Shown here piece by piece: positions 48,303 to 55,377 of a stretch of DNA of 64,000 nt; the first letter of the stretch is position 1; each line of letters begins with the position of its first letter. A program made the translations under genes and the position numbers. The stretch is taken from contig CP168152.1 of the NCBI GenBank assembly GCA_041545745.1, forward strand, positions 3,098,001 through 3,162,000. The letters are read 5' to 3'. The notes beneath the pieces were generated by a model. It saw only the letters and a list, made by a program, of their open reading frames with translations, was not told the DNA's origin and did not search any database. This stretch comes from Stenotrophomonas indicatrix. Lineage in GTDB: Bacteria; Pseudomonadota; Gammaproteobacteria; Xanthomonadales; Xanthomonadaceae.

Positions 48303-49852
<1,550 letters not shown>

Positions 49853-50927: not shown

Positions 50928-52829
50928 TTACGCGCCCTCGGCCTGGAGCCGCTCGGTGAAAGCCTGGAGGCTCATGCTGCCGAGATCTTCGCCAGAACGC
51001 GTACGCACCGCCACAGCGCCGTTTTCCTTCTCGCGGTCACCAATGACCAGCAGGTACGGCACGCGCTGCAGCGTGTGCTCGCGAATCTTATAGCCGATCT
51101 TCTCGTTACGCAAATCGGCGCTGACGCGGAAGCCTTGATCCGCAAGGCTTTTGGTCACGGCAGACACGTATTCAGCCTGCGCATCGGTGATATTGGCCAC
51201 CACCACCTGGGTCGGCGCCAGCCAAGCCGGGAACTGGCCGGCATGGTGCTCGATCAGGATGCCCAGGAAACGCTCCATCGAGCCTACGATGGCCCGGTGC
51301 AGCATCACCGGATGCTTCTTCTGGCTGTTCTCGTCCACGTATTCAGCGCCCAGACGGCCAGGCATCATGAAATCGACCTGCATGGTGCCCAGCTGCCAGG
51401 TGCGGCCGATGGCGTCCTTCAGGTGGTATTCGATCTTCGGGCCGTAGAAGGCGCCCTCGCCCGGCAGCTCCTGCCATTCCACCCCGCAGCTGGACAATGC
51501 CGAGCGCAGCGCGCCCTCCGCCTTGTCCCAGGTGGCATCATCGCCCAGACGCGATTCGGGGCGCAGCGCGATCTTGACCTGGATCTCCTCGAAGCCGAAG
51601 TGCTGGTACACCGCCAGCGCCTGCTGGTGGAACGCGGTCACTTCCGCCTCGACCTGGTCTTCGGTGCAGAACACGTGACCGTCGTCCTGGGTGAAGCCAC
51701 GCACGCGCAGGATGCCGTGCAGCGCACCGGAAGGCTCGTTGCGGTGGCAGGCGCCAAACTCGCCGTAGCGGATCGGCAGATCACGGTAGCTGTGCAGCCC
51801 CTGGTTGAACACCTGCACGTGGCCCGGGCAGTTCATCGGCTTCAGCGCGTAGGTACGCTTCTCCGACTCGGTGAAGAACATCGCGTCCTGGTAGTTGTCC
51901 CAGTGGCCCGATTTCTGCCACAGCGACACGTCCAGGATCTGCGGGCAGCGCACTTCGCCGTAGCCGGTGCTGCGGTACACCTTGCGCATGTACTGCTCGA
52001 CCACCTGCCACAGCGCCCAGCCCTTCGGGTGCCAGAACACCAGGCCCGGGGCCTCTTCCTGCAGGTGGAACAGGTCCTGCTGCTTGCCGATGCGACGGTG
52101 GTCGCGCATCTCCGCTTCTTCGATGCGCTTGATGTACGCATCGAGCTGCTTCTTGTCGGCCCAGGCGGTGCCGTAGACGCGCTGCAGCTGCTCGTTCTGC
52201 GCGTCGCCACGCCAATAGGCGCCGGAAATGCGGGTCAGTTTGAAGGCCTTCAGGAAGCGCGTGTTGGGCACGTGCGGGCCGCGGCACATGTCCACGTACT
52301 CTTGGTGGTAGTACATGCCCATCGCCTGGATCTCCGGGGACATGTCCTCGATCAGGCGCAGCTTGTAGTCCTCGCCACGGGCCTTGAAGATCTCGATGAC
52401 TTCCGCACGCGGCGTCACTTTCTTGATGACGTCGTAGTCCTGTGCGATCAGCTCGCCCATGCGCTTTTCGATCACCGCCATGTCCTCCGGGGTGAACGGG
52501 CGCTCGGAATAGATGTCGTAGTAGAAGCCCTCGGCGATCACCGGGCCGATCACCATCTTCACGTCCGGATAGAGCTGCTTGACCGCGTGGCCGACCAGGT
52601 GGGCGCTGGAGTGGCGGATGATTTCCACGCCCTCCTCGTCCTTGGCGGTGATGATGCGCAGGGAGGCATCGTGGTCGATGACGTCACTGGCATCGACCAG
52701 CACGCCATCCACCGAACCGGCGATGGTGGCCTTGGCCAGGCCGGCGCCGATCGACTGGGCGACGTCCATGACGCTGACAGGATGTTCGAATTCGCGGCGG
52801 CTGCCGTCGGGAAGGGTAATCGTGATCAT
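50928..52829 (-). CDS. thrS: Threonyl-tRNA synthetase
   Basis: 633 residues: TGS domain ([18 protein letters not shown]), editing domain ([18 protein letters not shown] with HxxxH, plus the later Cys of [13 protein letters not shown]), class II catalytic core ([31 protein letters not shown]) and anticodon-binding domain. The first gene of the minus-strand translation cluster. Its leader carries a Thr-codon peptide and a small terminator (52897-52917). Confidence 0.98.
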
Positions 52830-52896
52830 TTCAATGGCTTCATGCGGGGCCCGCCGGGCGGGCTGGAAAGCGCTCCCGGGCCAACGCCCGGGCAAT

Positions 52897-52917
52897 AAAA
52901 AAGCGCCACTAGGGCGC
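52897..52917 (-). terminator. thrS leader terminator
   Basis: On the minus strand GCGCC-CUAGU-GGCGC is followed by UUUUUU (52897-52902). The stem is short (5 bp), but the T run is good. No minus-strand gene lies upstream, so it can only act on the thrS transcript, as an attenuator. Confidence 0.65.
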
Positions 52918-52943
52918 CTGGAATGCAGGGCCTTCGGGGCAGG

Positions 52944-52970
52944 TCAACAGTGGGCGGTGGTAGTGCTCAT
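52944..52970 (-). CDS. Thr-rich leader peptide MSTTTAHC of thrS
   Basis: Nine codons on the minus strand: ATG AGC ACT ACC ACC GCC CAC TGT TGA. Three adjacent Thr codons lie in an 8-residue peptide that ends 27 bases before the thrS leader terminator. This fits ribosome-stalling attenuation by Thr-tRNA shortage. The Shine-Dalgarno is weak (GAG about 9 bases upstream). Confidence 0.6.
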   Translation of the reverse strand: MSTTTAHC

Positions 52971-53031
52971 GTCGCACGCTCGGCCGGCGCAGTGCGCGGG
53001 CCACCTTGGTTCCAGGATGTGGTTGCCCACG

Positions 53032-53060
53032 ATCTTAAACCAGTGGCCGACAAAGCCCAA
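53032..53060 (-). promoter_or_regulatory. Candidate thrS promoter
   Basis: On the minus strand TTGGGC (53055-53060), a 17-base spacer and TAAGAT (53032-53037). Transcription would start near 53025, just before the Thr leader peptide and terminator. Confidence 0.5.
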
Positions 53061-53094
53061 GCGGCGCCTGAATGGCGCTCGCTGGCGGCGTGAA

Positions 53095-53115
53095 AACGCA
53101 ATGATTACCATGTGC
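53095..53115. promoter_or_regulatory. Weak Fur-box-like site
   Basis: GCAATGATTACCATG resembles part of the Fur consensus (AATGAT arms). It lies upstream of the DUF3325/DUF3649/PepSY operon, whose predicted role in iron uptake makes it plausible. The match is partial. The rest of the 52971-53247 gap shows no gene. Confidence 0.3.
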
Positions 53116-53247
53116 GCGCAGCCAGCCTCCGTGCCGACCTGCCCGCTTCCCCCAGGACCCTGCAATGCGCCACCCGCCCCGACCGGCGCCTGCCGGTCCC
53201 GCCCGTGCCCCGCGTTCACCGGCCGAGTGCCGGGCTCGGAGCCCGCA

Positions 53248-53544
53248 ATGATCACCGTTGGCCTGTCGACCCTTGGCTTCTGCAGCCTAGGCATGCTGTC
53301 GGCGATGTTCTCCGCGCTGGCGTTCTATGCCGCCTCCCCGCACTGCCGTTGGCCACGTCTGCGCCGTGCCGGGCGCCTGGGCCGGCAGATCGGCCTGGTC
53401 GCTGCTGTGGCCGCGCTGTGGCTGTGGATGGCCGAGCTGGGCTTTGCCGCCGGCCTGGTGGCGATGCTGTGCACCTGGATGCTGGCCGCCATGCTGCTGC
53501 CGGCACTGGCCGCGTGGCACCGCCCTGATGTGGAGCCGCGCTGA
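53248..53544 (+). CDS. DUF3325 membrane protein, probable siderophore-iron system
   Basis: 98 residues with three hydrophobic helices: ITVGLSTLGFCSLGMLSAMF, an LGRQIGLVAAVAALWLWMAE segment and GLVAMLCTWMLAAMLLP. It overlaps the next gene as TGATG. This is the DUF3325 family, usually found with DUF3649 and a PepSY protein in iron-uptake loci. An in-frame ATG at 53101 would add a Pro/Cys-rich stretch that looks non-coding. Confidence 0.85.
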   Translation: MITVGLSTLGFCSLGMLSAMFSALAFYAASPHCRWPRLRRAGRLGRQIGLVAAVAALWLWMAELGFAAGLVAMLCTWMLAAMLLPALAAWHRPDVEPR

Positions 53545-53807
53545 TGTGGCCGCGCGCACTGGCCGGCATCTTCGCCGGCTTCTTCCTTGCCGCTGCGGCA
53601 ACCGGCCTGGTGGCATGGCTGCCGCCGGGCCCCTGGCAGAAGGCCCTGGTGCCGAGCCTGATCGCATTCGTCCCGTTGTGGATGCTGGCCGCGCTGTGGG
53701 CCTTCAGTTTCCGCAGCCCGCTGCGCGCCTGGCTGACCCTGGCCGGTTGCGCGGCCCTTGGCTTCGCCGTACTCGGCCTGCTGCGCCTGACCGGCGCGGT
53801 GCAATGA
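53544..53807 (+). CDS. DUF3649 membrane protein, probable siderophore-iron system
   Basis: 87 residues with two or three transmembrane helices (RALAGIFAGFFLAAAATGLVAW and LVPSLIAFVPLWMLAALWAF, quoted in part). It overlaps DUF3325 by one base and precedes the PepSY gene by 10, so one operon. DUF3649 proteins pair with PepSY reductases in many proteobacteria. Confidence 0.87.
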   Translation: MWPRALAGIFAGFFLAAAATGLVAWLPPGPWQKALVPSLIAFVPLWMLAALWAFSFRSPLRAWLTLAGCAALGFAVLGLLRLTGAVQ

Positions 53808-53817
53808 GATCGACCGC

Positions 53818-55377
53818 ATGAAATTCAGTTCCCAGACCCTGCGCACGTTCACCACCCTGCACACCTGGGTTGGCCTGGTCGCCGGCTTCGGGCTGTTCGT
53901 GGCGTTCTATGCCGGCGCGCTGACCCTGTTCCACCACGACCTCCCGCTGTGGCAGACACCAGGCGCGGCAACCGCGCTGCCGGCCGGCCTGGATGATGCG
54001 CAGTACCTGCTCGACGACGTGCTGGCCACGCACGCCGAAGCGCGTCGCCACGTTGGCATGACCTTCCCGGGCACCGATCATCCGCAGCCGCTGGCCTACT
54101 GGCAGGCCGAAGACGGCAGCTGGCGCTATGCATGGCCGGGACAGACCGGCGGCAGCCCCACGCCACCGCAGACCGGGCTGGCCGAACTGGTCAACGAACT
54201 GCATTACAGCCTGGGCCTGCCGGTCGCCGGCGTCTACGTGATGGGCATCGTCAGCCTGCTGTACGGCATGGCCCTGCTCAGCGGCCTGGTGATCCACCTG
54301 CCCAAGCTGCTGGGCGATCTGTTCGCGCTGCGCCCGGGCCGCAATCTCAAGCAGCAGTGGCAGGACGCGCACAACGTGATCGGCGTGCTCAGCCTGCCGT
54401 TCCATCTGATGTTCGCGGTGACCGGCGCCCTGCTCTGCCTGGTGTTCATGCAGATGGCCGTACTCAATCCCCTGATCTACGACGGCAAGGCGCTGCAGGC
54501 GGTACCGACGGCGATGGACACCGCGCCGCTGCGCGAGGCCAGTGGCATCCCTGCTGCACCGGGCAGTCTGCGCGAACTGCACGCACGGGCGCTGGAAGTG
54601 GCACGCGCGCAGGGTGTGGCAAATTTCGAACCGGCCTACCTGAAACTGGCCAATGGCGGTGATGCCAACGCGACCATCGAGATCACCGGCGAGGCCAGCG
54701 GCACGCTTGGCCCGCTCGGCGCCGTCGCGCTGGATGTCGAAAGCGGCCGCGTGCTGGCCAGCCAGCTGCCCGGCCAACGCGATGCCAACCACGCCACGCT
54801 CAGTGCCGCCTATGCCCTCCATTTCGGCGAGTTCGGCAACGGCGTGGTGGTCTGGCTGTATTTCCTGCTCGGCCTCGGCGGCGCCTTCCTGTTCTATTCG
54901 GGCAACCTGCTGTGGATCGAGTCGCGGCGCAAACGCCGTCAGCCGCAGCAGTCACGCGCTGCCGTCAACATGGCGCGGGCCACTGTGGGTGTCTGCATCG
55001 GCCTGTGCGTGGCGATCTCGGTGGCCTTCGTGGCCGCGCTGGTGCTGGAGCGGGTAGCACCTGCACAGGTCGACCATGGCATCCGCTGGGCCTGCTTTGT
55101 GACCTGGGCGGCGTGTGCGCTGTGGGCAGCCCTGCGCCGCCCGGCGCAGGCGGCGCGCGAGCTGCTGTGGGCCGCGGCGATCAGCACCGCACTGGTGCCG
55201 GTGGCGCACGGCGCCCTCAACGGTGACTGGCTGTGGCTGGCCGCCACACGCGGCCACTGGCCGTTGTTCTGGATCGATGCGATGGCACTGGCGATGGCCT
55301 TTGGCTTTGCTCGCCTGGCGTATGCGAGCCAGCGGCGGGCCCGCAACGGTGACCCCAACAGCGTGTGGGCAAACTGA
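53818..55377 (+). CDS. PepSY-associated TM protein (siderophore-iron reductase-like, FpvG-type)
   Basis: 519 residues with four or five N- and C-terminal helix groups around a periplasmic PepSY region. His residues typical of b-type heme sites are present in LHTWVGLVAGFGLFVAFYAG and AHNVIGVLSLPFHLMF (in part), and HFGEFGNGVVVWLYFLLGLGG in the second membrane block. By family resemblance it reduces ferric siderophore in the periplasm or inner membrane, as FpvG does in Pseudomonas. The DUF3325/DUF3649 partners support this. Confidence 0.85.
   Translation: MKFSSQTLRTFTTLHTWVGLVAGFGLFVAFYAGALTLFHHDLPLWQTPGAATALPAGLDDAQYLLDDVLATHAEARRHVGMTFPGTDHPQPLAYWQAEDGSWRYAWPGQTGGSPTPPQTGLAELVNELHYSLGLPVAGVYVMGIVSLLYGMALLSGLVIHLPKLLGDLFALRPGRNLKQQWQDAHNVIGVLSLPFHLMFAVTGALLCLVFMQMAVLNPLIYDGKALQAVPTAMDTAPLREASGIPAAPGSLRELHARALEVARAQGVANFEPAYLKLANGGDANATIEITGEASGTLGPLGAVALDVESGRVLASQLPGQRDANHATLSAAYALHFGEFGNGVVVWLYFLLGLGGAFLFYSGNLLWIESRRKRRQPQQSRAAVNMARATVGVCIGLCVAISVAFVAALVLERVAPAQVDHGIRWACFVTWAACALWAALRRPAQAARELLWAAAISTALVPVAHGALNGDWLWLAATRGHWPLFWIDAMALAMAFGFARLAYASQRRARNGDPNSVWAN

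Follow-up and report, generated by a model that had tools for sequence, protein, structure and literature searches.

Organization of the thrS leader region

On the minus strand of the window (the whole 64,000-nucleotide stretch of Stenotrophomonas indicatrix DNA analysed here), a promoter-like site is followed by a short frame encoding MSTTTAHC, an intrinsic terminator and thrS, as read directly from the sequence (Table 1). A preliminary description of the locus had listed a promoter-like TTGGGC-N17-TAAGAT, a threonine-containing leader frame, a terminator and thrS, and all of them were recovered in that order, with 17 bases separating the -35-like and -10-like sites. The frame, given as nine codons, reaches that number if the stop is counted (eight sense codons plus stop). 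One detail had to be adjusted: the gap between the leader stop and the terminator stem is 26 bases, not 27. The Shine-Dalgarno (SD)-like sequence of the leader, the conserved hairpin in its ribosome-binding site (RBS) and the breadth of the feature were not part of that description and are added here.

Table 1. Features of the thrS leader region in the window, in minus-strand order.
Feature	Position	Strand	Basis or remark
-35-like TTGGGC	53055..53060	-	present in 29/32 distinct genus rows (by reading)
-10-like TAAGAT, inside GGTTTAAGATC	53032..53037	-	kept in 31/32 distinct genus rows (by reading)
Shine-Dalgarno-like AAGGUGG of the leader peptide	53001..53007	-	last two G are the first two stem bases of the hairpin
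Hairpin GGCC-C-GCGC-ACU-GCGC-C-GGCC, between SD and start codon	52982..53002	-	covariation
Conserved unpaired GAGCGUGCGAC, directly before AUG	52971..52981	-	GTGYGAC in 30/30 (best 30 of 68 model-found loci)
Leader peptide MSTTTAHC plus stop, Thr at codons 3-5	52944..52970	-	ATG AGC ACT ACC ACC GCC CAC TGT TGA
Spacer holding the proposed antiterminator 5' arm (CCGAAGGCCCUG, 52937-52926)	52918..52943	-	CCGA.GGCCC invariant in genus alignment
Intrinsic terminator GCGCC-CUAGU-GGCGC-U6	52897..52917	-	sequence reading and terminator scan
thrS, threonyl-tRNA synthetase, 633 aa, putative controlled gene	50928..52829	-	named by sequence and by position before infC and pheS

A terminator scan of 1.1 kb on both strands returned two terminator-like sites (0.5 +/- 0.8 in shuffled sequences), the leader terminator among them, while a strict sigma-70 scan of the leader region returned no promoter. 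The stability of the whole folded leader is not unusual (z -1.17). Scanned against Rfam, the window yielded four tRNAs as its only matches above threshold, with no T-box and no other family; at a loose cut-off the leader region gave five weak matches (E 0.26-9.6), far below the gathering scores and none of them a T-box. In agreement with the earlier claim that no minus-strand gene precedes the leader, the nearest upstream gene-like frames in the list of open reading frames (53544-53807 and 53818-55377) are both on the plus strand. In the window the reading frame of the leader is open upstream as well. The leader is therefore also the last part of a longer frame of 116 codons (52944-53294), called mechanically, which would cross the promoter-like site.

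Two more GC-rich palindromes (CCCGGGCGTTGGCCCGGG; GCCCGCCCGGCGGGC) lie at 52849-52892 of the minus strand, between the terminator and thrS, and look alike in genus relatives by eye. Elsewhere in the window, a conserved terminator-like palindrome, GGGGAAGGGCGCAAGTCCTTCCCC, is found between rplT and pheS (49370-49520, minus strand); 27 of 30 family genomes match an rplT-pheS query, mostly over this palindrome alone. A Phe leader upstream of pheS was considered and set aside: although the palindrome is conserved, visual inspection showed no conserved frame rich in Phe codons.

Conservation of the leader peptide and its threonine codons

The genus set comprised 34 loci (30 of the 61 sampled genomes plus L032-L034 and L045), and the leader frame with its Thr codons is kept in every one of them. 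The encoded peptides are MSTTTAHC (24 loci), MSTTTAHR (6), MSTTTAPC (2), MSTTIAPC (1) and MSTTPAHC (1); codon 3 is invariably ACT, codon 4 is ACC in 33 loci and ACG in one, and the stop falls at index 8 throughout. Downstream of the leader, all 34 loci have GGCGC and directly after it a run of five or more T, a condition set by the extraction script. An alignment of the 32 distinct genus sequences, which begins at the predicted start and ends with the U-tract, has invariant blocks within the RBS, the Thr codons, the post-stop CCGA.GGCCC and the terminator. Loss of the Thr codons or of the terminator in close relatives had been named beforehand as evidence against control by a leader peptide; both are kept within the genus. 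Across Stenotrophomonas and Xanthomonas, joint conservation holds for the Thr codons and for the genus terminators; outside the genus it is weakened in three Xanthomonas loci (L036, L037, L043), where the U-tract is interrupted by eye.

For a wider comparison, we defined a core form by the sequence up to the ATG (GTGYGACATG or GTGCGTACATG), codon 3 playing no part in the selection. This form occurs in 88 of 136 loci of the order. Their leaders stop after 6-9 codons and diverge at other residues, yet codon 3 encodes Thr in 88/88, as ACT in 85, giving the short conserved frame with cognate codons that marks an attenuator. The 54 core-type loci outside the genus, all distinct, encode 49 different peptides. 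Codon 3 is again always Thr (51 ACT, 2 ACC, 1 ACG), codon 4 is Thr in 46 (ACC 40, ACG 5, ACA 1) and the stop lies at index 6-9 in all 54. By comparison, frame +2 stops within 12 codons in 2/54, and frame +1 is uninformative because ATGA itself contains a stop in 32. Seven of the 54 peptides have a single Thr, and codon 3 is the sole position that is always Thr. Such a pattern would be expected of a translated frame in which a Thr codon is required. ACT is scarce in the window: it accounts for 29 of the 580 Thr codons counted in 24 long frames, and for 0/24 in thrS. Against this scarcity its near-fixation at codon 3 is notable.

A probable hairpin-bridged start site

The core layout consists of AGGUGG, a hairpin and AGYGUGYGAC-AUG. 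AGGUGG is swapped for AGGAG, AGGA or AGAGGAAG in L053, L086 and L104, which points to a Shine-Dalgarno site. In 55 sequences the hairpin has 8 pairs, 7 of which changed on both sides, and 95.4% of cells are paired; none of 500 shuffles did as well, and slid versions pair at most 43.6%. Folding of the hairpin cuts the distance between SD and AUG from about 32 to about 11 bases. The two are thus linearly too distant with a conserved hairpin between them, the arrangement of a hairpin-bridged SD.

GTGYGAC was itself the selection criterion of alignment A1, and its invariance there is uninformative for that reason. Among the best 30 of 68 model-found loci, GTGYGAC is present in 30/30 and ACT ACC forms codons 3-4 in 30/30, the model having been built on such sequences and favouring them. 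L173 is alone among the non-core loci of the order in coming within one mismatch of GTGYGAC (AGGAGTGTGGGACATG), and it has no hairpin; since it resembles the core with the hairpin excised, it suggests that the hairpin was placed inside an SD.

These features allow a more speculative reading, which we regard as possible though doubtful, in which the leader RBS is itself a regulatory device. Reading of the leader would require the SD-splitting hairpin (AGG-[hairpin]-AG) to be folded. In combination with GUGYGAC, the hairpin would serve as a timing element or second sensor, coupling polymerase to ribosome on a leader that is too short for attenuation of the classical type. The device would have replaced the ThrRS operator in this lineage, with form B (below) perhaps retaining operator remnants.

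Three other pairings were considered and set aside. A switch in which the SD (GGUGG) would pair with the Thr codons (CUACC) is feasible in 92.4% of cells, shows no compensatory change and is no better than in shuffles, leaving it unsupported. CUGGAAC before the SD pairs by eye with GUUCCAG before the terminator in many genus rows and fails in several (L005, L021, L022, L026, L033 and L034). The GUGC/GCAC pairing around the AUG predicted by RNAalifold hinges on codon 2, which differs from one family to the next.

Distribution of the core element

A model of the core element (R1) matched 61 of 61 sampled genus genomes with E <= 6e-14. The host genome itself has one strong match (E 1.5e-16); the next is at E 0.93, and we treated its four further matches (E 0.9-7.1) as noise. 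Across 200 genomes of the order, 68 matches fell below 1e-6, covering 36/36 genomes of the host's own family, 31/33 of family f12 and one of f3, with none in other families. All 68 are placed 83-234 nt upstream of thrS on the same strand; order matches at E 0.004-0.1 were treated as noise. With stricter filters on 143 class genomes, only two members of the host's family scored well, and three other genomes at E 0.001-0.005 were treated as noise.

Other leader forms across the order

Leaders of other kinds were sought in 136 upstream regions assigned to the order (97 + 39, with six identical pairs kept unmerged). A script requiring a frame that holds two or more Thr codons, then a terminator, before thrS was positive in 109/136 order loci as against 5/49 outside the order. 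Several top frames among the 109 differ from the leader, though the leader has two Thr codons by eye, and only L178 looks like a chance positive; four of the five outside positives (L196, L200, L211, L222) overlap a tRNA gene by eye. The 27 misses include six leaders with one Thr codon (L035, L074, L078, L080, L091, L152) and ten loci in which a leader is seen by eye and the script found no terminator: seven of core type (L040, L049, L053, L056, L060, L066, L070) and L075, L183 and L184. By eye, no leader was found in 12 of the 136 loci (L071, L099, L159, L163, L166-L169, L176-L178, L185), of which L178 is the chance positive and the rest are script misses. An intrinsic terminator, expected between an attenuator leader and its gene, precedes thrS in 117/136 order loci, a feature also common in the outside control (21/49).

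Outside the core form, other families appear to follow the same logic with different ribosome-binding sites, with peptides such as MKTTTIN, MNTRTRTIV, MCQQATTTTTP and MTRT.... Form B (17 loci, 14 distinct) consists of an SD, a hairpin CGU-A-GUUC-loop-GAAC-ACG, AUCACC and ATG ACG CGA/CGC, usually continuing with ACC (MTRT...). Its hairpin is paired in 100% of cells, with 2/7 pairs changed on both sides; 24/500 shuffles reach that number of pairs and 0/500 reach the covariation score. Form C has a plain SD, GAGGTGGCAC ATG, in 5/6 f11 loci. In form D (loci of f4, f7, f8 and f10, e.g. MKTTTIN and MNTRTRTIV), a -10-like site of the TATAAT/TACAAT/TAAAAT type lies 6-7 bases before the ATG, and the leaders are apparently leaderless. 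Frames starting 6-7 bases after such a site were noted in L157, L161, L162, L179-L181, L183 and L184, where this suggests leaderless translation of an attenuator peptide.

CGA-ACT (Arg-Thr) recurs in dissimilar leaders of several families, Burkholderiales included (L157, L161, L162, L165, L179-L181; L270, L277, L278); in the window, CGA is an infrequent Arg codon (73/988). By a strict rule, Thr leaders are found in 5/38 Burkholderiales loci (e.g. MTPRTTTTICERR) and in 0/89 class loci; L073 and L235 are further Burkholderiales Thr leaders by eye. Because some Burkholderiales carry them too, the feature may predate the order. Farther downstream in L235, AGUUCGCG matches CGCGAACU. In several families (L055, L061, L097, L100, L107, L147-L149, L152-L154, L156, L170, L171 and L173-L175), thrS and its leader are immediately preceded by a tRNA gene, tRNA-Val by eye. 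As the adjacency of tRNA and thrS is also found in many other gammaproteobacteria, the leader apparently emerged inside a gene order that was already old.

Apparent replacement of the ThrRS operator

Control by a leader peptide, and not by an operator of the E. coli type, had been proposed from the window alone. We searched the last 75 nt before thrS for an operator-like motif using a narrow pattern, an anticodon-like hairpin with a CGUA loop. The pattern was found in 29/89 class loci outside the order, where by eye more loci bear operator-like hairpins. The same narrow pattern had no match in Burkholderiales (0/38 loci) or within the order (0/136), the unplaced MAG L096 having been assigned to the outside set because it carries the motif. 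The proposal is supported in this respect, and the leader appears to take the place that an operator bound by ThrRS has in other gammaproteobacteria. E. coli thrS is the textbook case of a synthetase that represses its own translation; much of the order appears to use direct sensing of charged tRNA-Thr instead.

An operator sequence, CGTAGCGATCACCA (L192, L194), resembles the form B stretch CGTAG...CGATCACCATG (or CACGATG; L146-L154, L156, L164). By this resemblance, the form B stretch is a possible remnant of the ThrRS operator.

Proposed mechanism and alternative explanations

From the conserved frame, Thr codons, RBS hairpin, terminator and gene, we infer a ribosome-mediated transcription attenuator with a hairpin-bridged RBS that senses charged tRNA-Thr, an assignment we consider very likely. 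Mechanistically, transcription would start about 20 bases upstream of the SD-like AAGGUGG, judging from the -10-like site. The hairpin would then shorten the gap between SD and AUG, so that a ribosome could load onto the leader frame despite its very small size. When Thr-tRNA is scarce, the translating ribosome would wait at codon 3 (ACU) and at any Thr codons that follow. The post-stop spacer would then be available for pairing with the terminator's 5' arm and loop, and thrS would be transcribed. With plentiful Thr-tRNA, the ribosome would reach the stop codon and crowd the spacer, and the terminator would form. A ribosome at a stop codon, given the size of its footprint, reaches the edge of the spacer. 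The difference between this position and that of a ribosome at codon 3-4, which leaves the spacer free, makes attenuation that senses charged tRNA-Thr the likely function. More ThrRS would thus probably be made when charged tRNA-Thr runs short, in the host and in most relatives examined.

The stalling attenuation put forward in the preliminary description gains support from the comparison, in which Thr is kept while the rest of the peptide diverges, the attenuation step itself being deduced. A putative mutually exclusive antiterminator, in which the spacer would pair with the loop and 5' arm of the terminator, has only moderate support. By eye, the post-stop spacer is complementary to these elements in several versions (CCGAGG/CCUCG, CCAGG/CCUGG, CCAAGG/CUUGG). 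Compared with shuffled spacers, the duplex energy gave a mean z of -1.08 over 67 distinct related loci, with 11/67 at p <= 0.05; the test left out the seven core-type loci without a scripted terminator, and in a few loci (L022, L035, L051) the scripted terminator is apparently misplaced. The relatedness of the sequences and the few misplaced terminators keep this support moderate. In the window the spacer duplex is weak (p 0.225), the terminator loop being CUAGU instead of CUCGU, and in the genus fold 0/24 predicted pairs covary. Also counting against attenuation are the single Thr of seven core leaders outside the genus, few codons for a classical sensor; the position of a ribosome at the stop codon, which in the window would only abut the GGCCCUG arm; the seven core-type loci without a scripted terminator and the interrupted U-tracts of three Xanthomonas loci; the frequency of terminators before thrS outside the order; and the 12 order loci in which no leader was seen.

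The strong covariation of the RBS hairpin and the adjoining GTGYGAC (30/30 among the best 30 of the 68 model-found loci) could also be explained if ThrRS, another protein or a ligand bound the hairpin and controlled leader translation or termination, the Thr codons being secondary. We consider this improbable: leaders in other families have a different hairpin or none, leaving Thr codons as the common denominator, and neither the length nor the sequence of the hairpin loop is constant, so that a fixed anticodon mimic is lacking. Still less credit goes to the idea that frame and terminator yield a short RNA, a small RNA or terminated transcript, instead of a thrS sensor. Both views predict a terminated transcript of roughly 125-135 nt; yet all 68 strong model matches lie just upstream of thrS, and a small RNA would have no need of a conserved frame with Thr and a stop. 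Slimmer again is the chance that leader translation acts on thrS translation or on Rho access and not on intrinsic termination, as the same seven core-type loci without a scripted terminator might indicate; the frequency of terminators in the order speaks against it, though they are also found in 21/49 loci of the outside control.

For the proposed attenuator sensing charged tRNA-Thr, the core form offers a leader of 6-9 codons, a sensing codon two codons past the start and a covarying hairpin inside the RBS. The natural series of hairpin A, hairpin B, plain SD and apparently leaderless forms bears on the minimum needs of an attenuator, and on how the regulation of a gene gets swapped in evolution.

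Comparison with known systems

The E. coli pheST attenuator resembles the system described here in placing a synthetase gene under a leader peptide with many residues of the cognate amino acid; its peptide, PheM, is longer, contains Phe codons and has an ordinary RBS. The E. coli thrS operator has, to our knowledge, neither a leader peptide nor a terminator. There, ThrRS represses thrS translation and a hairpin interrupts the ribosome-binding site, as outlined in the passages on thrS in PMC3858243. The gene and the RBS interrupted by a hairpin are thus the same; however, the E. coli hairpin described in that source separates a U-rich stretch from the SD (PMC3858243), and here the hairpin separates the SD from the AUG. 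A hairpin in the latter position is reported for T4 genes 38 and 25, shortening the spacing of gene 25 from 27 to 11 nt, much as here (about 32 to 11); these are phage genes, and the relevant passages of PMC3014915 do not mention attenuation for them.

The closest parallel is thrL of Streptomyces lividans, a Thr-containing leader peptide upstream of thrS that its authors list as an attenuator (PMC8079986). According to that source, thrL encodes the 18-residue MKRVRPFLETTPGFVPAR on a leaderless transcript, with a hairpin but without a U-rich tract; it belongs to another phylum, and the passages on thrL describe no hairpin-bridged RBS. In the passages found in PubMed Central (including PMC2965389, PMC4833913, PMC10272879 and PMC8079986), this was the sole thrS leader, with none in Xanthomonadales or Betaproteobacteria. 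The 2010 study of synthetase-operon attenuation by Lopatovskaya et al., cited by PMC4833913 and PMC10272879, might hold an earlier prediction. The kind of system, a Thr leader of thrS, is therefore known from S. lividans, and what appears to be new is that a very early Thr codon is combined with a hairpin-bridged start site.
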